64,000 nucleotides of DNA from Gammaproteobacteria bacterium (GTDB lineage: Bacteria > Pseudomonadota > Gammaproteobacteria > 21-64-14). Every line of letters begins with the position of its first letter. Position 1 is the first letter of the stretch. A program made the position numbers and the translations under genes. The notes beneath the pieces were generated by a model. The model worked only from the letters and a program-made list of their open reading frames with translations, had not been told where the DNA came from and did not search any database. Of this stretch, positions 45,099 through 62,529 are shown in pieces. Location: contig JALUXX010000065.1 of NCBI GenBank assembly GCA_027013145.1, positions 62,001 to 126,000 on the forward strand. Reading direction: 5' to 3'.

Positions 45099-45112
45099 TT
45101 GACCTGGATCAA
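45099..45112. promoter_or_regulatory. FNR/DNR-type box (TTGACCTGGATCAA)
   Basis: Perfect TTGA-N6-TCAA palindrome between the radical SAM-ubiUV operon (minus strand) and the 65-aa gene (plus strand). It lies 86 bases before the radical SAM start and is the better candidate for that operon. Confidence 0.65.
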
Positions 45113-47353: not shown

Positions 47354-47638
47354 TCACAATGCCGCGAGCGCGGCGCGCTCCGCCGCCTCGTCGCCGGAGC
47401 GCCAGATCAGGATCTCGAACAACGCGCGCCGTCCCGGCCGCGTCTCGAAGCGAAAGCCGTCCTCTTCCAGCAGCGGATAGAGCAGGTAGGGTTCGCGGTG
47501 CAGCAGCATGCGCAGGTAGTGGCCCGGCGGGAGTTGGGCCAGCGCGTCGAGGGCGCGCTCCATCGGCTGCGGCGGTTCCAGACCGTCGACGTCGAGCAGG
47601 CGCTCGTATCCAGGCGTGGTTTTCGCCGGAGCGTTCAC
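47354..47638 (-). CDS. DUF2249 domain protein
   Basis: The 94-aa protein carries the DUF2249 pattern: LDVDGLEPPQPMERALDALA followed by LPPGHYLRMLLHREPYLLYP and the FETRP segment. The fold is related to TusA/SirA-like sulfur carriers but lacks their cysteine. DUF2249 genes often accompany hemerythrins and NO-response genes. The GTG start overlaps the hemerythrin stop (GTGA). Confidence 0.82.
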   Translation of the reverse strand: MNAPAKTTPGYERLLDVDGLEPPQPMERALDALAQLPPGHYLRMLLHREPYLLYPLLEEDGFRFETRPGRRALFEILIWRSGDEAAERAALAAL

Positions 47639-48099
47639 GCCGCGCCCCGCGCGCCGCTCGTCTGCGCCAAGCGTCGCATCGCGTCGAGGAGCGCGGCGCG
47701 CTCGTCCTGGAGCACGAGGTCGATGGCGGGATACAGCACCTGTTCCTCCTTGAGGTTGTGCTGCTGGATCAGCGTGAACAACGTATCGGCGTGCGCCAGG
47801 AAGGCGTCGCGGTCGCGTGCGCCGATCCGCTCCGTGAGCGCCGCGTGCAGCTCGCGGATACGCCCGTGCTCGGCGCGCATGACCGCGGTGGGGCCGGCGG
47901 GCTGCCCGGTCCGCGCCTCGAAGGGCGGGAACAGGATCTCCTCCTCGCGCGCGAGGTGGCATTCGAGACGCCGGCGAAACGCCGCGAAGTGCCCCTCGGC
48001 AAGCGTCCACGCGCCGCGGGCGACCGCCGCCTCGGCGGCGCCGAAGTCGGCGTCGCAGGCGCGGTGATCGTCGCACAAAAAACCGCTGATGGTCTCCAT
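47635..48099 (-). CDS. hemerythrin HHE-domain protein
   Basis: The 154-aa protein has a four-helix hemerythrin-like pattern with metal-binding residues in DDHRACD (9-15), HLAREEEILFPPFE, MRAEHGRIREL and HNLKEEQVLYPAID, matching the H...HxxxE...HxxxxD layout of a di-iron site. Such proteins bind O2 or NO or help repair iron centres (as in RIC/ScdA). ATG 48099 follows GGGAGAAG. It is translationally coupled to DUF2249 and sits downstream of the thioredoxin fusion gene; a degenerate FNR-type box lies about 140 bases upstream, over the thioredoxin gene stop. Confidence 0.86.
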   Translation of the reverse strand: METISGFLCDDHRACDADFGAAEAAVARGAWTLAEGHFAAFRRRLECHLAREEEILFPPFEARTGQPAGPTAVMRAEHGRIRELHAALTERIGARDRDAFLAHADTLFTLIQQHNLKEEQVLYPAIDLVLQDERAALLDAMRRLAQTSGARGAA

Positions 48100-48231
48100 G
48101 TCGCTTCTCCCGGGATCCGTGACGATATCAAGGACGATCACGACGGCGGTGACGGTTGGCCTGCGCGCCGGTGAAAGTCCCGCTCCTGATCGGACTGCCG
48201 GGCACGATACCCGCGCGTCGGGGGCGACGCC

Positions 48232-48952: not shown

Positions 48953-49399
48953 TCAGTCGGCGCAGCGCATGCACTGCACGTCGTAGCGCTCGATCCACGC
49001 CCGCAGGGCCTCCTGCGCCTGGTCGCCGCGGGTGAGCCGCGCGAGCGCGCTGTTGGGGTCATCCGGCTTCACGATCACGAGCCAGGCGTCGGTATAGGGT
49101 GTGACGTTGACCAGGCCCGGATTCTTATCCACCTCGGGGTTGATCCCCACGACCGTTCCGTCGAAGGGGATGGGGATGCCGCCGGCCCACTTCCCCGATT
49201 CCAGGCGGGCGACCGATTTCCCCGCGGCACGGTGCGTGCCGGGTTTTTTGAAGAAGATGTACTGCACCCGCCCGGCCATGGTCTGCGCCGGGTCGGTGAT
49301 GCCGAGGCGGTAGGTGCCGTCCGGTTCGGGTCGCACCCAGACGTAGTCGAGATCGTAGTAGAGATCCTCGGGCAGTTCGCAACCGCGGTATTCGCCCAT
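48953..49399 (-). CDS. GcvH-like lipoyl-carrier protein with C-terminal CxxC
   Basis: The 148-aa protein has the glycine cleavage H-protein/lipoyl fold: LYYDLDYVWVRPEPDG, RLGITDPAQTMAGRVQYIFF and the lipoylation loop ARLESGKWAGGIPIPFDGTV with K70 as the likely lipoyl lysine. Unlike GcvH it ends in C143-M-R-C146. No gcvT, gcvP or lipA is nearby, so it is not part of a glycine cleavage operon. Lipoate-binding GcvH-like proteins (LbpA) occur in sulfur-oxidising sHdr systems, but no hdr genes are seen here. It lies between the two oxidase-like membrane genes with gaps of 16 and 2 bases. Confidence 0.87.
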   Translation of the reverse strand: MGEYRGCELPEDLYYDLDYVWVRPEPDGTYRLGITDPAQTMAGRVQYIFFKKPGTHRAAGKSVARLESGKWAGGIPIPFDGTVVGINPEVDKNPGLVNVTPYTDAWLVIVKPDDPNSALARLTRGDQAQEALRAWIERYDVQCMRCAD

Positions 49400-49401
49400 G
49401 G

Positions 49402-49797
49402 TCAGCCTCCCGGTCCGTAGCGGCGCACGGTGCGCAGGATGTTCAGCGTGAACAGCGCGATCGCAAGCCACGACAGCGCGCCCCCCGCCGCGACCAGCGC
49501 CACATCGGCCGCGAGCCAGCCCGCGGCCATCAGCCACAGGCCGAGGTTGGCGGTGTAGAGTTGCCAGTCGGCGATGCGCTCGGAGTACAGCGGGCGTCCC
49601 GAAAAGCGCGGCAGCACATGCAGGCCGACGCCGTAGATCATCATGGCGATGAAACCGAGCAGCATGATGTGCGCATGCAGCAGCGCGACGTCGCCCGGCA
49701 GCGGGGTCGGGTCGATGAGCCAGGCGATGCCGATGAGCCCGCCGAGCAGCCCGTAGATCAGGGCGAGGGTGATGAACAGCCGGTTGCGCCAGTGCAT
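49402..49797 (-). CDS. small oxidase-like four-helix membrane protein
   Basis: The 131-aa protein has four transmembrane helices. The second helix (LLHAHIMLLGFIAMMIYGVG) and following HVLPRFSGRPLYSERIADWQ resemble the C-terminal quarter of the oxidase subunit I at 58.6 kb (HYHGCIVAVTLAFMGMTYEL, LPRLGF...HWQ) and the membrane half of the thioredoxin fusion. It could hold a heme or metal through its His residues. It starts the minus-strand operon, divergent from dnr with 92 bases between the two starts. Confidence 0.78.
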   Translation of the reverse strand: MHWRNRLFITLALIYGLLGGLIGIAWLIDPTPLPGDVALLHAHIMLLGFIAMMIYGVGLHVLPRFSGRPLYSERIADWQLYTANLGLWLMAAGWLAADVALVAAGGALSWLAIALFTLNILRTVRRYGPGG

Positions 49798-49889
49798 GGG
49801 AGGGATTATCGTACCGTCGAAGTCGGATTACTAGCGGCGCCCGAGGCGCGCGCAGCGGATCCGCCGGACCCCGCGGGGCGTGGCCTCCG

Positions 49890-50576
49890 ATGACCGAATC
49901 TTCCGATATCGACACCGAACTGCGCCGCGTCTATCTGTTCAATGCATTCGACGCGGGGCAGCTCGAACGCATACGGCGCGCGATGCGCGTGGTCCATGTG
50001 GACGGCGGAGAACGCCTGTTCGATCATGGGCAGAGCGCCGAGCGCTTCTTCCTCGTCCACCTCGGGAGCGTCAAGCTCTACCGTGTCTCCTTCGAAGGCG
50101 CGGAGAAGGTCATCGAGATCGTTCCTGCAGGTCACACCTTCGCCGAGGCGGTGATGTTCATGGAGCACCAGGTCTATCCGGTCAGCGCCGAGGCCCTGGA
50201 GCCGAGCATCCTGTACTCCTTCGACAACGAGGTCTTCCGGCAGTTGCTGCGCGACTCGGTGGATACCTGTTTCCGACTGCTGGGCGACATGAGCATGCGC
50301 CTGCACGCCCGGATCAACGAGATCAACGCGCTGACCTTGCAGAATGCGACCCTGCGTCTGGTCGGTTATCTCGTGCGCGAACTGGACGCCGGTGCCGGTG
50401 CCGGTACAGTGGAGTTGCCGGCGGCCAAGAGCGTTGTGGCGTCCCGTCTGTCCGTGCAGCCGGAGACGCTGTCGCGGATCTTCCACAACCTGGGTTCGTC
50501 CGGCATCATCCGCGTCAAGGGCAAGCAGATCGAGATCCTCGATGAGGCGCGGCTGCGCGAGCTGCTGCATTATTGA
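49890..50576 (+). CDS. dnr: Dnr-type Crp/FNR regulator
   Basis: The 228-aa protein closely follows the Dnr pattern: YLFNAFDAGQLERIRRAM, GHTFAEAVMFMEHQVYPVSA at 85-104, the long dimer helix RLHARINEINALTLQNATLR and a helix-turn-helix with SVQPETLSRIFHNLGSSGII. It has no N-terminal cysteine cluster, so it is not FNR; Dnr proteins sense NO through heme and bind TTGA-N6-TCAA boxes. It is surrounded by NnrS-like, hemerythrin and oxidase genes whose upstream regions carry such boxes, so it is the likely regulator of this region. Confidence 0.92.
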   Translation: MTESSDIDTELRRVYLFNAFDAGQLERIRRAMRVVHVDGGERLFDHGQSAERFFLVHLGSVKLYRVSFEGAEKVIEIVPAGHTFAEAVMFMEHQVYPVSAEALEPSILYSFDNEVFRQLLRDSVDTCFRLLGDMSMRLHARINEINALTLQNATLRLVGYLVRELDAGAGAGTVELPAAKSVVASRLSVQPETLSRIFHNLGSSGIIRVKGKQIEILDEARLRELLHY

Positions 50577-50745: not shown

Positions 50746-51084
50746 TCAGCCCGAACTCCAGGCGCGCGGGCGGCGCATCCCGGCGAGTTTGCAGGCCTGT
50801 TTGACGTACCCGTAGGGGAACAGCGTGAACAGGTAGCTGCGCGCGTCCGCCCCCTTTCCGAGATCTTCAGCGACGAACTTGATGACGAAGCGCGCGTCGG
50901 CGGCGATGCCGCTGCGCGTGTAGTAGTCGCGCATGAACTCGAACACCTTCCAGTGATCCTCGGTGAGTTCGATGTCCTCGCTCGCCGCAAGGGCGCGCGC
51001 GGTCTCCTCGTCCCAATCCTCAGGGTCGACGAGATAGCCTTCATCGTCCAGGTCGATCGAGCGTCCGGCGACTTGCAGATCCAT
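50746..51084 (-). CDS. DsrC/TusE-family protein without the C-terminal cysteine
   Basis: The 112-aa protein is a full DsrC-family member: DEGYLVDPEDWDEETARALA, the helix-turn-helix-like DHWKVFEFMRDYYTRSGIAA and the C-terminal arm FPYGYVKQACKLAGMRRPRA. DsrC uses two C-terminal cysteines for sulfur transfer; here C98 (CysB position) is present but the penultimate CysA is missing, as the protein ends WSSG. It therefore cannot form the usual trisulfide and is better seen as a regulatory or alternative DsrC-like protein. Two perfect FNR-type boxes precede it. ATG 51084 has AGGAGG at correct distance. Confidence 0.88.
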   Translation of the reverse strand: MDLQVAGRSIDLDDEGYLVDPEDWDEETARALAASEDIELTEDHWKVFEFMRDYYTRSGIAADARFVIKFVAEDLGKGADARSYLFTLFPYGYVKQACKLAGMRRPRAWSSG

Positions 51085-51179
51085 AAGCATCCTCCTCATC
51101 GGCGGGACCCCGCAACGGGGTTCCGCGGCATCGGCTTGCGACACCGTCAATGGATAGCAGGTGCATGGGCGGCACGTAA

Positions 51180-52356: not shown

Positions 52357-53604
52357 TCAGCCGGGCTTGCCGTCCACCCGGCGGCGCAGATAGAGCGGAG
52401 CGTAGCGCAGGACCCAGGCGCCGAGAAACAGGAGCCATGCGAGCGCCGCCAGTACGTTCAAGGCCAGGCCGCCGGGGCGCGCCCCCGGCGCGATTGCCCC
52501 GGCGATGCGCACCAGGGCGGTGAGGCCGACGCCCCAGAAACAGATCCAGGTGAAGGTGTCGGCGGTCAGCGCGCGCCCGGAGTGCCCCAACGTCACGCGT
52601 GTGGCCATTGCCACGACCAGGCCGGTCAGGAACCCGATGCCGAGCGCGTGCAGGGGCGCGAGGCCGAGGACCATGCGCCCCGTCTCCCACAGCCAGAACC
52701 CCTGGACGGTGTAGAGTGCAAGCGCCACGGGGCACCACGCGAAGGCAACATGCAGGACTGCCAGCAGCCGCACACGGAAACTGCGCAACAGTTCCCAGTG
52801 CCGGCTGTGGTTCGCGGCGAGCGCGAAGAATACGAGGTCCGCCGGCCACGTCCAGCGGTGCAGCCCCGCCGCCGCCAGTGCACCGTGGGCGAAGCTGCAC
52901 CCGAGCATCGCCAGCAGCGCACGGCGTGGCTGGTAGACGGTGTACGGGCGCAGCACGACGTTGCTGAAGTAGGGGATCATGCGGTGGGCGACGGTCACCG
53001 CGACCGGCACGAGGAACCACCACAGGCCCGCCTCGCGCGCGAAGCGCAGCATCCCGACGCGGCCGTCGAAGACCCACAGGACATAGGCCGCCATGCCGGC
53101 GGCGCCGGCCACGAGCGCGGCGTTCAGCAACCGCTCGTAGAACTTGTCCCGCGCCGGCGCCGCGGCGAACACCTGCAGCAGTGCGTGGAGCGCCGTCACC
53201 CAGCCCGCGAGGTAGAGCGCCGCACCGGCCCCGAGCAGGGTGCGCGCGGAGAACAGGCCCGCATAGAAGAGCGCGAGCCCCCCCGTGAGCAGCAGGAAGC
53301 TGCGCACGTAGCGCCGGCGCGGGATCGCCTCGCCGTTCATCCAGCGCGGATAGGTCGTCATGAGGAAACCGAGGAAGAACAGCGGGAACAGCCCGTAGAC
53401 CATCAGGAAGAGGTGCGCGAACGCGGCGGGGATCTGCGTGCGCGGCGCCGGCATCATTCCGTAGCGGGCGGCCAGTTCCACGCCCCAGAAGAGGAGGGCG
53501 GCGACCATCTGCAGCGCGCCGGCGAGAAACATCATCCGGTGCGGTGCGGCGGTGAAGACCGGTGCGCGTGCGGGTGTGCCCGCTTGTCCGGCGCGGCCCT
53601 CCAT
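52357..53604 (-). CDS. nnrS: NnrS family protein
   Basis: NnrS is a heme- and copper-containing membrane protein linked to tolerance of NO and related stress. The 415-aa protein has twelve transmembrane helices and NnrS hallmarks: FAHLFLMVYGLFPLFFLGFL and MTTYPRWMNGE near residues 46-75, and later LHALGIGFLTGLVVAMATRV followed by LGHSGR. It lies downstream of the cytochrome b-diflavin gene on the same strand and is probably part of one transcript with the CopD-like and SirB2-like genes. Confidence 0.88.
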   Translation of the reverse strand: MEGRAGQAGTPARAPVFTAAPHRMMFLAGALQMVAALLFWGVELAARYGMMPAPRTQIPAAFAHLFLMVYGLFPLFFLGFLMTTYPRWMNGEAIPRRRYVRSFLLLTGGLALFYAGLFSARTLLGAGAALYLAGWVTALHALLQVFAAAPARDKFYERLLNAALVAGAAGMAAYVLWVFDGRVGMLRFAREAGLWWFLVPVAVTVAHRMIPYFSNVVLRPYTVYQPRRALLAMLGCSFAHGALAAAGLHRWTWPADLVFFALAANHSRHWELLRSFRVRLLAVLHVAFAWCPVALALYTVQGFWLWETGRMVLGLAPLHALGIGFLTGLVVAMATRVTLGHSGRALTADTFTWICFWGVGLTALVRIAGAIAPGARPGGLALNVLAALAWLLFLGAWVLRYAPLYLRRRVDGKPG

Positions 53605-53670: not shown

Positions 53671-56211
53671 TCAATAGACATTGCGGCGATATCGTCCGGC
53701 ATGTATGAGCTCCGACACGTAATCTTCGGCTTGCGCGATCGTACACGATCGGGCCGCGGCGATCAGTTCGACCACCACGCGGTCCACCGCCCGGCCCATC
53801 GCCTCGGCGCCGCAGACATACAGGACGGCGCCCTCCTCGAGCCAGGCATAGACTTCGCTACCGTACTCGCGCAGGCGGTGCTGTATATAGACCTTGTGCG
53901 CCTGATCGCGGGAGAAGGCGGTAACGAGCCGGGTGAGGCGCCCCTGCTTCAGCCAGCGCTCCCAGTCCTCCCCGTAAAGGAAGTCCGTACTGCGGTGGCG
54001 GTCTCCGAAGAACAGCCAGTTGCGCCCCGCGGCGCCGAGTGCCTCGCGCTCCTGCAGGAAGGCGCGAAAGGGGGCCACTCCGCACCCGGCGGTCACCATG
54101 ATTATCGCCTGGTCGGGGTCCTGCGGCAGGTGGAAATCCGGATTGCTCTCGACCGCGAGGGGGACGGCCTCGCCGAGGGGGAGGCGGTCGACAAGAAAGG
54201 TCGAGGCGATGCCCACCCGATCGCGTCCGTGGCACCGGTAGCGGACCGGGACGACCGTCAGGTGCAGCTCTCCCGGGCAGGCGAGGAGGCTGGAGGCGAT
54301 GGAATAGCGCCGCGCCGGCAGCGGCCGCAGGGTGTCCACGAAATCCTGTGCGCGCAAAGCGTCTGCGGGGTGGTCGCGGACGATATCGGCGATCTGCCGG
54401 CAATGCGCCCAGGCCTCGAAGGCGGCGGCCCCGTCGCGATCCAGCACCTTCCGCAGAGCCGGCGAGTGGGTGAGTTCGGCGTAACGCTCGAGAAAAGGGC
54501 GCGTCGGGCGGGTGATCTCGTAGCGGCGCGCGAGCGCCTGCGCCAGCGGCATCTCCCCGTAGCGGGTACGCACGCGGGCCGCCGCATCCAGGCGCGTCTG
54601 CGCGAGCAGCTCTTCCACCAGCGGGGCGGGGTTCGTGGGGATGACGGAAACTGTGTCGCCCGGGGCGTACTTGATGTCGGTTCCGGTGACATCGAGGCGC
54701 AAGTGCCACACCTCGCGGGTCGATCCCGGTCCGGTGAGCTCGGACCTCCCGATGAGCGTCGCGGCGGGCGCGGCGGGTCGGGCCGGCGCCCTCGTCCCAC
54801 CGCCCGCGGGCACCGGGGTCCGCGGCGGAGACGGCGCGCTGCCCGTTGCGACGGCGGCGAGCACCGACTCCACCCAGTGCGCCGCGGTCTGCTCGTAGTC
54901 GAGGTCGCAGTCGACCCGGGGATGGATCCGCGCGGCGCCAGCGGCCGCCAGGGCGGCATCGAAGTCTTTGCCGGCTTGGCAGAACTTCGGATGGCTGGCG
55001 TCGCCGAGCGCCAGCACGGCGTAGCACACGCCGTGCAGGTCGGGGGGGCGGGGACCGGTGAGCAGGGCATGCAGATCGCGGGCGCTGTCGGGCGGCTCCC
55101 CGTCCCCATGGGTGCTGATGATGATGAGCAGCACTGGTTCCCGGGGCAGGCGCACCGGCGGGTAGGTGCGCATGTCCTGGAGGTCGGCATCGATGCCCAG
55201 GGTCCGCGCCCTGGCCGTCAGGTCTCGCGCCACCCCCGCGGCGTGCCCGGTCTCGGAACCGAACAGCACGGTCATGCGCAACGCGCCGGCGGGTGCCGCC
55301 ACGCCTGGCAGGGGCGAGGGGGCTTCCGTCCCTGTCCCGGCCTTCCGCCGCGGCAGCCATGGGAGGAGGCAGAGGAGGAGGGTGGAGGCGAAGAGGAGGG
55401 TCCAGACGAAGGCCGGGGGGGTGTGGCCGGCGAGGGGGTAGATGGAGAGGTAGAACCAGTCGAGGTGCAGGGTGGTGGGGGCGGAGGCGAGGTTGGCGGG
55501 GCCCTGGCTGTGAGCGGGGTGCAGGAGTGCGAGTGCGAGCAGTGCCAGGAGGGTGCCGACGGCGAGGGGGCGCGGGGGATTGATCACGGGGCGGCTGATG
55601 CGCTGGAGGTGGAGCCAGATGAAGCCTGCCAGCAGCAGGGGCAGGCTGAGGAAGTGGAGGAAGGCGAGCAGGGTGAAGAAGCGGTCGCTGAGGCTGTCGG
55701 GGGTGAGGAAGTTTCGGGCGATGGGGGCGGCGAAGACGGGGAGGCGGTCGAGCAGTTCGGTGGTGAGGACGGCCAGGTACTGGGCGAGGCGGTCCCAGAC
55801 CAGCCAGTAGCCGGTGATCCCCAGGATCGCCACCAGCCACAGCGTGGGCACCCCGGTGAGCCAGGAGAACCGGTGCGCGCCGCGAAAGTGATCGTAGGCG
55901 AAATGGCGGATCAGGTGCAGGGTGAGGGTGATCACCGCGGCGTCGGCGGCATAGCGGTGCAGGCTGCGCAGGACGCCGCCGAGGTACCACTGCTGGCGGG
56001 TGAGGTATTCGACGGAGGCGTAGGCGCCGTGGACGCTGGTGTGGTAGAAGACGTAGAGGTAGATGCCGGTGACGAGGACGATCCAGAAGAAGAAGATGGT
56101 CAGGGCGCCGAGGTAGTGGAAGGGATTGGCCGCGGCGCCGAAGGCGGCGTCCATCCATGCCTCCAGCGGTGCCAGCCCGTGTCGCACCGTCGACTGCAGC
56201 CACCGCAGCAC
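53671..56211 (-). CDS. cytochrome b fused to a CysJ-like diflavin (FMN/FAD/NADPH) reductase
   Basis: The 846-aa protein has a cytochrome b domain (1-288) with heme ligand pairs H85/H99 and H186/H201 and extra helices at about 217-232 and 265-285. A short linker leads to a flavodoxin domain (about 313-450; GSETGHA 318-324, STHGDGE 366-372, LGDASHPKFC 402-411) and a sulfite-reductase-flavoprotein-type FAD/NADP domain (about 485-846; RRYSIASS 634-641, AGCGVAPFRAF 708-718, terminal Tyr 846). This would move electrons between NADPH and membrane quinone or a partner oxidase. The start is GTG. Residues 1-288 look identical to the second cytochrome b fusion. It is followed by nnrS. Confidence 0.9.
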   Translation of the reverse strand: MLRWLQSTVRHGLAPLEAWMDAAFGAAANPFHYLGALTIFFFWIVLVTGIYLYVFYHTSVHGAYASVEYLTRQQWYLGGVLRSLHRYAADAAVITLTLHLIRHFAYDHFRGAHRFSWLTGVPTLWLVAILGITGYWLVWDRLAQYLAVLTTELLDRLPVFAAPIARNFLTPDSLSDRFFTLLAFLHFLSLPLLLAGFIWLHLQRISRPVINPPRPLAVGTLLALLALALLHPAHSQGPANLASAPTTLHLDWFYLSIYPLAGHTPPAFVWTLLFASTLLLCLLPWLPRRKAGTGTEAPSPLPGVAAPAGALRMTVLFGSETGHAAGVARDLTARARTLGIDADLQDMRTYPPVRLPREPVLLIIISTHGDGEPPDSARDLHALLTGPRPPDLHGVCYAVLALGDASHPKFCQAGKDFDAALAAAGAARIHPRVDCDLDYEQTAAHWVESVLAAVATGSAPSPPRTPVPAGGGTRAPARPAAPAATLIGRSELTGPGSTREVWHLRLDVTGTDIKYAPGDTVSVIPTNPAPLVEELLAQTRLDAAARVRTRYGEMPLAQALARRYEITRPTRPFLERYAELTHSPALRKVLDRDGAAAFEAWAHCRQIADIVRDHPADALRAQDFVDTLRPLPARRYSIASSLLACPGELHLTVVPVRYRCHGRDRVGIASTFLVDRLPLGEAVPLAVESNPDFHLPQDPDQAIIMVTAGCGVAPFRAFLQEREALGAAGRNWLFFGDRHRSTDFLYGEDWERWLKQGRLTRLVTAFSRDQAHKVYIQHRLREYGSEVYAWLEEGAVLYVCGAEAMGRAVDRVVVELIAAARSCTIAQAEDYVSELIHAGRYRRNVY

Positions 56212-58638: not shown

Positions 58639-60135
58639 TCAGTGCGCCTTCAGGTCGGGCACGGGCGCACCAGGTGAGCGCGGCTGCGCGCCGGATGCGT
58701 GCGCGGGAGACCTCGGCCGGTGGAGCGCGGCGAAGCAGACGACCAGGAACAGGATGCCGCCGGCCACCGCCACCAAGCCGCCCACGCCCATCAGGCCCAT
58801 GGCGGCATTCTCCTGCCACCCGTGGAGCCCCTGGGCGGCGCCGGCGACCTTGCGCGAGACGCCGTAGCCGCCCGCCCAGGCGAGTCCCGCGATGTGGAGG
58901 AGTTCACCGCCGCCGTAGAGATAGGGCTGCCAGTGCGCGGCACGGGGAGTGGGGGTGCGGAAGCCCAGGCGCGGCAGCAGTTCGTAGGTCATGCCCATGA
59001 ACGCCAGCGTCACCGCCACGATGCAGCCGTGATAATGGGCGGGCACAGTGACGTTGTTGCCGTGGATGAGCAGGCCGAGGATTCCGCCGACCCCGAACAG
59101 CAGCACGGAGCTGAGCAACGCGGCGCGCTGGGGGGCGCCAAGCAGCGGGGCCGCGGCGGCGGTGGCGACGCCGTAGAGCACGGCGAGGGCGATGGGGACC
59201 GCGGCCAGGCTGCCGCCGAACGCCATCAGCCACAGGAAGAAGCGGTGGAACTGCACGGATGCGGGGCTGTACGCCAAGTAGGCAACCGGCGTCAGGAACA
59301 CCCACAGCAGACCCCATGCGAACAGCGCCAACACCACCCGCGGGCTCAGAGGAAGGCGCACGCGGCCGCCCGCTGCGAGCCAAAGCCATGCCACGAGCAT
59401 GAGCTGCGTATGGGTGTACTGCAGCACGTGTCCGCCGCCCCAGAAGAGCTGTTCGAAGTACGCTCTCCCGAGGAGGTCCGGCGGCGTGGACAGGTAACTC
59501 AGGGCGAACGCAAGCAGCGCGATCGCCGCGGCGATCGCCGCCGTGTTGATGCCGAAGCGCAGTGCCCCGGCGCCGCTTGCGAGCACACCGATCGGTTGTG
59601 CACAGCACAGCGACAATGCAACCTGAATTGCGACACCCGCGGCGAAGAGGATCAGTCCCGACAGGAACAGCGGATCCTGCAGCACCGGCACATAGTTGCT
59701 CATCAGGGGCTGCGCGGCGCCCAGGAAGGGTGAGCCCGCCATGATCAGTGTGCCCGCCGTCGCCACGGCGAGGGCGGCCCAGCCCCATGATCGGCCGCGG
59801 CGTACCGGGTTGAGGCTCCAGAACACGCCGGCGAAGGCCAGGAACCAGACCAGGACCGACAGGTCCACATGCACCACCAGCGCCGTGTGGAAGAAATCGA
59901 TCCAGGGGAAATGGCGGTCGAGGTAGGGGGTGCGCGAGAGGACCAACAGGATAGCGAACACGCCGGCACCGACGAGCGAGCCCAGGCCCAGCAGCAGCCA
60001 GCCGACGGCGAGCCGCCGCGGCACCCCCGCGGGAACCGGCAGCGAGAAGGCCGCTACGGGGTCCCCATGGACCGTGCCTACTTCATCCGCTGCGCCGGCC
60101 GGGTGGCGGTCGTTGCGCGTCGCTACAGTCGTCAT
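58639..60135 (-). CDS. heme-copper oxidase superfamily subunit I, divergent CuB site
   Basis: The 498-aa protein has twelve transmembrane helices. Probable ligands are H89 (low-spin heme, in VVHVDLSVLVW), H236 and Tyr240 (GGGHVLQYTH, compare HPEVY), and H367/H369 (VPAHYHG). Where canonical oxidases have a tandem His-His for CuB, this protein has H297-R298 (VQFHRFFLW), so one CuB ligand seems missing. It may be a NO reductase-like or unusual oxidase. The start ATG has GGGGGAGA. It sits between a 167-aa unknown protein and the copper chaperones. Confidence 0.86.
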   Translation of the reverse strand: MTTVATRNDRHPAGAADEVGTVHGDPVAAFSLPVPAGVPRRLAVGWLLLGLGSLVGAGVFAILLVLSRTPYLDRHFPWIDFFHTALVVHVDLSVLVWFLAFAGVFWSLNPVRRGRSWGWAALAVATAGTLIMAGSPFLGAAQPLMSNYVPVLQDPLFLSGLILFAAGVAIQVALSLCCAQPIGVLASGAGALRFGINTAAIAAAIALLAFALSYLSTPPDLLGRAYFEQLFWGGGHVLQYTHTQLMLVAWLWLAAGGRVRLPLSPRVVLALFAWGLLWVFLTPVAYLAYSPASVQFHRFFLWLMAFGGSLAAVPIALAVLYGVATAAAAPLLGAPQRAALLSSVLLFGVGGILGLLIHGNNVTVPAHYHGCIVAVTLAFMGMTYELLPRLGFRTPTPRAAHWQPYLYGGGELLHIAGLAWAGGYGVSRKVAGAAQGLHGWQENAAMGLMGVGGLVAVAGGILFLVVCFAALHRPRSPAHASGAQPRSPGAPVPDLKAH

Positions 60136-60152
60136 TGCGATCTCCCCCCTGA

Positions 60153-60656
60153 TTACCTGAAGACGAACACACCGTGGCGCGAGCTGAACTCGATCACGAA
60201 TACCTGCGCGGGGCGCAGCGTGATCTCCATCGCGCGCGCGCGCGCGGGCGCGGCCCGCGGCCCGTCGTCCCAGAGGCTCACCTGCAGGCGGTGGCGGCCG
60301 GCTGGCACGACGAAACGCGCGTAGATGTAGGAGAGGCCGTCGTGATGGAGGCCGGCGGGGGCGCGGGTCCGGTCGTAGAGCAGACGCCCGTCGAGGCGCA
60401 GCGCGACCCGCACGGGGTAGCGCCGGCGCGGACAGACGACCGGGACGCGGTCGTACTCGGGGAGGGCGGCGAGTTCGGCGGGCGTGCGCCGGCGGCACTT
60501 GCCGACATGCCGCCCGTACTGGTCCACGCTCAGTTTGATCACGGCGCGATCCGGCTGTAGATAGGTGTAGGCGGGGCGTTCGGAAAAAAAGCCGAGCGCG
60601 GTGGCGAAGGCCGCGTAGGCAAGGACCTGCAGCGAACCGCGCACCATCCTAGCCAT
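60153..60656 (-). CDS. hypothetical single-helix protein of the oxidase cluster
   Basis: The 167-aa protein has one N-terminal hydrophobic segment (about 8-26) and then a soluble, Arg-rich beta domain with two cysteines (C54, C75). The segment PVRVALRLDGRLLYDRTRAP and the later FVVPAGRHRLQVSLWDDGP suggest a periplasmic beta-sandwich. I do not recognise a family. It overlaps the end of the cytochrome b-ferredoxin gene by 8 bases and is 17 bases upstream of the oxidase gene, so it is probably a subunit or assembly factor of that complex. Confidence 0.68.
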   Translation of the reverse strand: MARMVRGSLQVLAYAAFATALGFFSERPAYTYLQPDRAVIKLSVDQYGRHVGKCRRRTPAELAALPEYDRVPVVCPRRRYPVRVALRLDGRLLYDRTRAPAGLHHDGLSYIYARFVVPAGRHRLQVSLWDDGPRAAPARARAMEITLRPAQVFVIEFSSRHGVFVFR

Positions 60657-62235
60657 GTCCGCCGCCTCCGCGTGCCGCGGCTTCGAGCCCGGCGCCGGCT
60701 GCGGTGCGGAGGGTGGCCGATCGCAACCGGCGGCGCAGGCGTTCCACGGCTGCCGCGACGCGTGCCTCTTCGCCGGCCGCAGCCCAGATCAGGGCGATGC
60801 GCTCGCGCGGGACGTTCGGGCGCAGGTAGGGTGCGCGGCGTCGCGCGAGCCGTTCCTCCACCCAGCGGTTCCCGAGCCGGTAGTTGCACTCGCCGGCCGC
60901 ACACCCGGTGATCACGATCCCCTCGGCGCGCCGCCGGCGCAGCAGGTACTCGATGAAGGACGGCGGCAGCATCGCGCTGCACGGCAGGGTCAGGACGGCG
61001 ACGTCCGCCGATCGCAGCGCCTCCACGCGCGCCGCATAGCGGCAGCCGAAGACCATGATGCGTACCGGCGCGCGGAGTGCCGCCAGGCGTTGCCCGGTGA
61101 CGGTCCGCACGCGATCAATCGTGAAGTCGGGCAGGTCGATCCCGCTCACCAGTTCCTCCACGCGGCGGAACGGCGTCGAGGAGGGGCACGCCCCGGCGCA
61201 GATCCCGCAGGCCGCGCACAGGGCCGGATTCACCACCGCGATCTTCCCGCGCGGTTTGCCGGCGGCCGGGCGCGGCGCCAGGGTGATCGCATTGAACGGA
61301 CAGTCGTCGACGCAGCGCCCGCAGCCGTTGCACCAGCGCGGCGTGACCACGGCTGCGGGCGCGTGAGCGGCCCGCGGCAGCCATGGGAGGAGGCAGAGGA
61401 GGAGGGTGGAGGCGAAGAGGAGGGTCCAGACGAAGGCCGGGGGGGTGTGGCCGGCGAGGGGGTAGATGGAGAGGTAGAACCAGTCGAGGTGCAGGGTGGT
61501 GGGGGCGGAGGCGAGGTTGGCGGGGCCCTGGCTGTGAGCGGGGTGCAGGAGTGCGAGTGCGAGCAGTGCCAGGAGGGTGCCGACGGCGAGGGGGCGCGGG
61601 GGATTGATCACGGGGCGGCTGATGCGCTGGAGGTGGAGCCAGATGAAGCCTGCCAGCAGCAGGGGCAGGCTGAGGAAGTGGAGGAAGGCGAGCAGGGTGA
61701 AGAAGCGGTCGCTGAGGCTGTCGGGGGTGAGGAAGTTTCGGGCGATGGGGGCGGCGAAGACGGGGAGGCGGTCGAGCAGTTCGGTGGTGAGGACGGCCAG
61801 GTACTGGGCGAGGCGGTCCCAGACCAGCCAGTAGCCGGTGATCCCCAGGATCGCCACCAGCCACAGCGTGGGCACCCCGGTGAGCCAGGAGAACCGGTGC
61901 GCGCCGCGAAAGTGATCGTAGGCGAAATGGCGGATCAGGTGCAGGGTGAGGGTGATCACCGCGGCGTCGGCGGCATAGCGGTGCAGGCTGCGCAGGACGC
62001 CGCCGAGGTACCACTGCTGGCGGGTGAGGTATTCGACGGAGGCGTAGGCGCCGTGGACGCTGGTGTGGTAGAAGACGTAGAGGTAGATGCCGGTGACGAG
62101 GACGATCCAGAAGAAGAAGATGGTCAGGGCGCCGAGGTAGTGGAAGGGATTGGCCGCGGCGCCGAAGGCGGCGTCCATCCATGCCTCCAGCGGTGCCAGC
62201 CCGTGTCGCACCGTCGACTGCAGCCACCGCAGCAC
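60649..62235 (-). CDS. cytochrome b fused to 2x4Fe-4S ferredoxin and MvhD-like domain
   Basis: The 528-aa protein starts with the same cytochrome b domain as the diflavin fusion (1-288; H85/H99, H186/H201). It continues with a bacterial ferredoxin domain (C302, C305, C308, C312 and C340, C343, C346, C350) and an MvhD-like domain (about 390-465) with C398, C419, C445 and C450; MvhD normally has a CxxC at the first site, here C-R-Y-A. MvhD proteins connect hydrogenases or dehydrogenases to heterodisulfide reductase. A route between quinone and Fe-S or thiol carriers is likely. The start is GTG, with an FNR-type box 67 bases upstream. Confidence 0.9.
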   Translation of the reverse strand: MLRWLQSTVRHGLAPLEAWMDAAFGAAANPFHYLGALTIFFFWIVLVTGIYLYVFYHTSVHGAYASVEYLTRQQWYLGGVLRSLHRYAADAAVITLTLHLIRHFAYDHFRGAHRFSWLTGVPTLWLVAILGITGYWLVWDRLAQYLAVLTTELLDRLPVFAAPIARNFLTPDSLSDRFFTLLAFLHFLSLPLLLAGFIWLHLQRISRPVINPPRPLAVGTLLALLALALLHPAHSQGPANLASAPTTLHLDWFYLSIYPLAGHTPPAFVWTLLFASTLLLCLLPWLPRAAHAPAAVVTPRWCNGCGRCVDDCPFNAITLAPRPAAGKPRGKIAVVNPALCAACGICAGACPSSTPFRRVEELVSGIDLPDFTIDRVRTVTGQRLAALRAPVRIMVFGCRYAARVEALRSADVAVLTLPCSAMLPPSFIEYLLRRRRAEGIVITGCAAGECNYRLGNRWVEERLARRRAPYLRPNVPRERIALIWAAAGEEARVAAAVERLRRRLRSATLRTAAGAGLEAAARGGGGHG

Positions 62236-62244
62236 CGCCCGCCC
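61372..62244. repeat. 873-base direct repeat, copy 2 (cytochrome b segment)
   Basis: Counterpart of 55348-56220. It ends 9 bases before the start codon; the adjacent 5' sequences then differ until the shared box at 62296-62309. Confidence 0.92.
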
Positions 62245-62295
62245 TCTGCGCAATAGATCTGGGGAGACGGTAGGTCCCGCGCCGCCGTCGCGGCC

Positions 62296-62309
62296 ATGAT
62301 GCAGATCAA
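62296..62309 (-). promoter_or_regulatory. FNR/DNR-type box upstream of the cytochrome b-ferredoxin gene
   Basis: Minus-strand TTGATCTGCATCAT, identical to the box at 56273-56286 and at the same distance (centre 67 bases) from the start codon. The bases between box and gene are different in the two copies. Confidence 0.6.
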
Positions 62310-62529
62310 GCGCCCCGGCGAGCGCCTGCGCCGGGGCGATCGCGGAGCGGGGGTGCAAGGGGATGCTGCCGCACGCCCCATGCAGGCGCGCCCGAACGAT
62401 CCCGCCCGGGGCGTGCGCCGGAGCCGGGAACGCGGCGAAGGACGGCACCGGTCGCTGCATGCTGCTCTCCCCCGCCGCCGCGCGGCGGCGGTGCCCGGCC
62501 CGCCCTCCCGGTCCCCCGGGCCCCGCCGC

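Follow-up and report, generated by a model that had tools for sequence, protein, structure and literature searches.

LbpA3, a clade of LbpA-type lipoyl carriers encoded with thioredoxin and genes suggestive of a nitric oxide response

What is a GcvH-like lipoyl carrier with a pair of cysteines in its tail doing between two oxidase-like membrane genes, with no glycine cleavage genes as neighbors? Lipoate is a cofactor of 2-oxoacid dehydrogenases, of glycine cleavage and, since 2018, of sHdr sulfur oxidation. We analyzed this locus within a stretch of DNA of 64,000 nucleotides, hereafter the window, and in related genomes. By phylogeny, the protein and 80 public relatives are a clade of their own, for which we coin the name LbpA3.

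The LbpA3 open reading frame lies on the minus strand, with its ATG at 49399 and its stop at 48953, where the preliminary description of this DNA had placed the gene. The 148-residue product (MGEYRGCELPED...ARLESGKWAGG...YDVQCMRCAD) is a full GCV_H domain (Pfam GCV_H, 109.3 bits, E 1.4e-31) and carries an N-terminal cysteine, C7. An intact lipoyl loop around K70, a C-M-R-C ending and two flanking oxidase-like membrane genes had also been described, and all three descriptions hold: K70 lies in LESGKWAGG, which lines up with the lipoyl lysine loop of GcvH; the C-terminal QCMRCAD places C143-M-R-C146 near the C terminus; the upstream neighbor has a sub-threshold COX1 match; and the model of the downstream product matches haem-copper oxidase subunit I (Table 1). 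The AlphaFold2 model of LbpA3 (pLDDT of 92.5) superposes on the Escherichia coli H-protein (3a7l) with a VIA-align Z of 21.1 and an rmsd of 1.4 over 128 residues, reaching residue 135. The CxxC tail is modeled past this H-protein-like fold and with lower confidence. No LbpA structure is among the solved relatives listed.

Table 1. Coordinates of LbpA3, its key codons and neighboring genes in the window.
Feature	Position	Strand	Remarks
LbpA3	48953..49399	-	Lipoyl carrier of 148 aa with a GcvH fold, bearing C7, K70, C143 and C146
Codons of C-terminal CxxC (C143-M-R-C146)	48962..48973	-	CxxC in 80/80 relatives
Codon of K70, predicted lipoyl attachment site	49190..49192	-	ESGKW/ESSKW loop in all relatives
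Codon of C7, N-terminal cysteine common to LbpA1 and LbpA2	49379..49381	-	
TrxMem, thioredoxin domain (WCTSC) plus four transmembrane helices	48232..48936	-	Thioredoxin_3, E 7.8e-10; starts 16 bp past LbpA3
Small NnrS/COX1-like membrane protein, HxH motif	49402..49797	-	Directly upstream of LbpA3, 2-bp gap
DNR-type Crp/Fnr regulator, divergent	49890..50576	+	Top PDB match 3dkw, E 1.9e-47
Hemerythrin HHE protein	47635..48141	-	PF01814, 78.3 bits
DUF2249 protein	47354..47710	-	PF10006, 48.3 bits; true start uncertain, probably ~47638
NnrS, membrane protein of NO response	52357..53604	-	PF05940, 205.6 bits

A scan of 84,980 species genomes yielded 94 relatives, of which 80 were retained. Their hosts include Thioalkalivibrio, Acidithiobacillus, Sulfuriferula, Thiobacillus, Sideroxydans, Acidiferrobacter, other Proteobacteria and Burkholderiales. 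Every one of the 80 has C7 within an N-terminal GC, K70 within an ESGKW or ESSKW loop and the C-terminal CxxC (QCMRC in most). Because all of these are kept in 80/80 relatives, the C7/K70/CxxC combination is, judged by its conservation, not a chance feature. The N-terminal cysteine is invariant across LbpA1, LbpA2 and LbpA3 and occurs in 0/30 GcvH, and the C-terminal CxxC is found in 0/19 LbpA1, 0/28 LbpA2 and 0/30 GcvH. Within a class sample of 369 genomes, 17 have an LbpA3 orthologue, counting the window's own; the orthologues outside that genome are 55–79% identical to the window protein, leaving a clear gap to LbpA1 and LbpA2 at no more than 46%. A scan of viral contigs gave no relative, and a viral origin was rejected.

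A tree of 100 proteins, built from an alignment of 149 columns, resolves four groups, and a single branch separates each of them from the rest: GcvH (100/99), LbpA2 (99/95), LbpA1 (100/99) and LbpA3 (99/97). LbpA3 and LbpA1 are sister groups (100/97), with GcvH far off. Given only 149 columns and long branches at the deep join, the order in which the deepest forks arise is less certain than the four groups themselves. On this phylogeny, LbpA3 is a third kind of LbpA-type lipoyl carrier, found in sulfur-oxidizing Gammaproteobacteria (in the GTDB sense, including Acidithiobacillus and Burkholderiales).

The genome from which the window derives (99.88% complete) encodes four GCV_H proteins above the cut-off. 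One is the gcvH of a gcvT-gcvH-gcvP locus on contig C36; at 163.8 bits it clears the NCBIfam gcvH equivalog cut-off of 115.85 bits, which LbpA3, at 83.0 bits, fails. Two more, LbpA1 and LbpA2, lie on contig C37 in an shdr locus. Radical SAM genes and a gene for an LplA-B-type ligase are also part of it, matching the LipS1/S2-sLpl(AB) pathway. LbpA3 could be simply a second H-protein of glycine cleavage. It shares the fold of GcvH (Z of 21), the GCV_H domain and the position of the lipoyl lysine, but it has ESGKW in place of ESVKA, carries cysteines absent from GcvH, scores below the cut-off that the C36 protein passes and falls outside the GcvH clade. The part of the window that was inspected shows no gcv genes, and neither gcvT nor gcvP adjoins LbpA3; they flank gcvH on C36 instead. 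Tree, cut-off and gene context thus led us to reject an ordinary GcvH, which we regard as exceedingly improbable. A misplaced sHdr carrier was rejected as well, since LbpA1 and LbpA2 are both on C37 and in other clades.

A survey of 95 LbpAs defined their hallmarks as the lipoyl lysine, one N-terminal cysteine and one C-terminal cysteine (PMC6067878). LbpA3 has the lysine (K70, in 80/80 relatives) and both cysteines (C7 and C143), and it resembles LbpA1 and LbpA2 of the sHdr pathway in its GcvH fold, ESGKW loop and terminal cysteines absent from GcvH (PMC6067878, PMC10332631). Unlike these proteins, which have a single C-terminal cysteine, it ends in CxxC and forms its own clade; it also lies outside the shdr cluster, beside thioredoxin, hemerythrin, DNR and haem-type genes. 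The 2018 study, which named two types, covered only LbpAs within or beside hdr-like clusters (PMC6067878). The preliminary description had set the protein outside any glycine cleavage context and likened it to LbpA of sHdr sulfur oxidation. The first point is borne out by the separate gcvH on C36 and by a tree that keeps LbpA3 apart from GcvH, with its cysteines in 80/80 relatives. The second stands for the kind of protein, by tree position and by hallmark cysteines plus one extra, but not for its partners, which are thioredoxin, hemerythrin, DNR and haem-type NO genes rather than sHdr.

In the window, LbpA3 is followed by a gene that fuses a thioredoxin domain to membrane helices (TrxMem). 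The TrxMem model matches subunit I of cbb3 and ba3 oxidases with Z of 13–14; by the standard of the comparison method, values near 13 for helical parts are suggestive only. The small membrane protein upstream matches COX1 at 27.9 bits (cut-off 34.8) and NnrS at 22.2 bits, both below threshold, and is itself a conserved LbpA3 neighbor. Both products contain four-helix units resembling the haem-ligand helix region (HxH ... H) of oxidase subunit I, and together the two may make up a split haem protein.

To compare gene neighborhoods, we counted genes within 2.5 kb of LbpA3 at 81 loci, the window included, or 43 after dereplication. Thioredoxin is the most constant partner (77/81 loci). It is near LbpA3 in 40 of the 43 dereplicated loci and in none at 3.5–6 kb, and the signal is therefore local. 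Hemerythrin follows (57/81), often directly upstream or downstream of LbpA3 and co-directional, and at least one such neighbor is present in 80/81 loci. The oxidase-like small membrane protein of NnrS/COX1 type occurs in 43/81, a Crp/Fnr regulator in 39/81, an FAD reductase in 16/81 and a globin in 14/81, with DsrC in 2/81; the conserved neighbors include none recognized as an shdr gene. The association with thioredoxin spans at least three different gene arrangements, of which thioredoxin is the partner recurring in all three: membrane protein, LbpA3 and thioredoxin/membrane fusion, as in the window; globin, FAD reductase, thioredoxin, hemerythrin and LbpA3 in Acidithiobacillus; and ligase, DNR-like regulator, LbpA3, hemerythrin and thioredoxin in the Acidiferrobacter type. 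On one plasmid of A. ferrooxidans, LbpA3 occurs with two hemerythrins, thioredoxin, DUF2249, an Hdr-like FeS protein, Crp/Fnr, hcp and NnrS, and on a second one a globin and its FAD reductase are also near it.

We compared regulators from these loci with solved structures, which include DNR, an NO-responsive activator that binds TTGATnnnnATCAA (PMC1274295). For the window's regulator, DNR of Pseudomonas aeruginosa ranks first among solved structures, far ahead of CRP and FNR (Table 1), and it is also the top match for a regulator from one Acidiferrobacter-type locus (4.7e-40); at the plasmid locus, DNR and another Crp-family protein matched about equally. We searched 900 bp upstream of LbpA3 for a strict FNR/DNR box, TTGA[CT]N4[AG]TCAA, which by itself does not separate FNR (anoxia) from DNR (NO), and found it in 21 of 43 dereplicated loci, compared with a shuffle mean of 0.125 and a downstream control of 0. 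These boxes lie mostly at a constant 50–70 bp before the first gene of the locus. A box directly before the window operon was rejected, as the interval from 49797 to 49890 holds none at the strict or loose consensus; strict boxes occur elsewhere in the window at 45099, 51180 and 51382. LbpA3 loci resemble the reconstructed DNR regulon in having a DNR-like regulator and, at those 21 loci though not directly before the window operon, in boxes of the TTGAT-N4-ATCAA kind; that reconstruction makes no mention of a GcvH-like protein (PMC1274295). We propose that LbpA3 is expressed within a DNR/NO-responsive operon. The host genome encodes NarG and a NirS-type cytochrome cd1, so NO is an expected intermediate in this organism.

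Two of the strict boxes (51180 and 51382) lie just upstream of a gene for a DsrC/TusE-like protein with a single C-terminal cysteine (50746–51150, minus strand), which is possibly another member of the same regulon. The third, at 45099, precedes genes at 41–45 kb (minus strand): one for a YhcC-like radical SAM protein and, after it, U32-peptidase-type genes that look like UbiU/UbiV of O2-independent ubiquinone synthesis.

A rival reading is an anoxic isoform of the sHdr carrier that, under denitrifying conditions, would replace LbpA1 as the carrier of sulfur substrates or electrons in sulfur oxidation, with NO genes as neighbors through shared anoxic regulation only. Consistent with such an isoform, LbpA3 is sister to LbpA1, the DsrC-like gene with its two boxes is 1.4 kb away, and 15 of the 17 LbpA3 genomes of the class sample have LbpA1/LbpA2 (Fisher odds ratio of ~148, p of 4e-16); the 16th has sHdrA, and the 17th is only 75% complete. 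This co-occurrence may, however, reflect only common lipoylation machinery and lifestyle. Sulfur genes are not conserved neighbors, with DsrC at 2 of 81 loci against 57 for hemerythrin and 77 for thioredoxin, and the CxxC tail is found in LbpA3 only. We consider the isoform unlikely. The genes conserved beside LbpA3 are those for thioredoxin, hemerythrin, DNR-type regulators and NO proteins of haem type, not sHdr, so that LbpA3 likely acts in the nitric oxide response rather than in sulfur oxidation.

Such a role presupposes a lipoyl arm on K70, which we infer to be present. Three features favor lipoylation: the lysine loop is invariant; C37 of the window's genome carries an LbpA-type ligase along with radical SAM genes; and a stand-alone LplA-B lipoate ligase adjoins LbpA3 in 13 loci (for example, L145, 4171–5187, minus strand). 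The LbpA3-side ligases share only ~33% identity with the ligase linked to shdr in the window's genome, and the stand-alone form may be specific to LbpA3.

From the gene content of these loci, LbpA3 probably serves the NO response as a lipoyl-dithiol carrier with thioredoxin as its partner. In the mechanism that we envisage, an sLpl(AB)-type ligase would lipoylate K70; the reduced dihydrolipoyl arm and the thiols of C7 and C143/C146 would accept groups derived from NO, with S-nitrosothiols or reactive nitrogen species as their source; and the neighboring thioredoxin, in the window presumably anchored to an oxidase-like membrane domain, would re-reduce the resulting LbpA3 disulfide. NO donors react with dihydrolipoyl arms (PMC9974485), and lipoic acid and thioredoxin catalyze S-nitrosothiol denitrosation according to a 2005 paper as cited in PMC9598160. 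On account of this chemistry, we favor denitrosation as the specific reaction, by analogy and tentatively, at somewhat less than even confidence. The further reading of LbpA3 as a denitrosylase built on protein-bound lipoate and CxxC, that is, a sulfur-oxidation carrier turned into an NO-induced, thioredoxin-recycled scavenger of S-nitrosothiols and NO, is possible, with the balance leaning against it. The explanation as a whole, comprising a third LbpA-type clade, a DNR/NO operon and a carrier using lipoate and a dithiol, seems to us reasonably probable.

A close alternative to denitrosation is an electron shuttle: LbpA3 would pass electrons from thioredoxin to the adjacent hemerythrin, or else to the oxidase-like, haem-type membrane proteins, and the acceptor would reduce NO at a diiron or haem center. 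The acceptor is the sole difference from our preferred explanation. The many hemerythrin genes adjoining LbpA3 (57/81 loci, often co-directional) and the fusion of thioredoxin to an oxidase-like membrane domain speak for this shuttle, but hemerythrin is not seen in 24/81 loci, partly owing to contig ends, and we rate the shuttle as somewhat unlikely. Hemerythrin and the single-domain globin are also able to bind O2, and thioredoxin is a general reductant, as might be expected of an operon for O2 binding or general oxidative stress and not for NO. The DNR-type regulator, FNR/DNR boxes, NnrS, hcp and globin with FAD reductase instead indicate NO or anoxia, making a general stress operon quite improbable.

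That LbpA3 travels with thioredoxin and NO-defense genes suggests lipoate-based NO defense. If true, an LbpA clade with thioredoxin under NO-type control would be an additional setting for protein-bound lipoate, and a denitrosylase would extend the role of lipoate beyond carbon and sulfur metabolism, linking the denitrosation chemistry of free lipoate and thioredoxin to a genetically encoded pair. In the literature searched, whose coverage is incomplete, with most subscription journals and preprints outside its scope, we found no earlier description of the LbpA3 clade, no paper on a lipoate-binding protein with hemerythrin and none on a GcvH-like protein with nitric oxide reductase.

GcvH-L of SirTM/macrodomain operons is reportedly GcvH-like, outside glycine cleavage and encoded together with a dedicated lipoate ligase in an operon related to stress. 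LbpA3 likewise is GcvH-like and outside glycine cleavage, but no ADP-ribosylation genes were seen beside it. The GcvH-L structure 5a35 aligns with LbpA3 over 112 residues (Z of 15.9, 23% identity) and is shorter.

Farther along the window, two cytochrome b fusions (53671–56211 and 60649–62460, both minus strand), one to a CysJ-like flavodoxin reductase and one to a ferredoxin part resembling the HdrA2 C terminus, flank SCO, CtaG, PCuAC and a divergent COX1-like gene. The latter (58639–60498, minus strand) encodes a protein that resembles haem-copper oxidase subunit I but is very divergent (COX1 35.3 bits, cut-off 34.8). At E 0.01 the solved structures hold no relative of it by sequence, and sequence did not link it to a solved NO reductase or oxidase.

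LbpA3 also varies in copy number and location. Acidithiobacillus has up to three copies per genome (L124, L126 and L137 in Acidithiobacillus sp. HP-2), and in A. ferrooxidans LbpA3 is plasmid-borne (plasmids of L060 and L061). The clade matters for annotation, as its plasmid copies are named 'glycine cleavage system protein H'.
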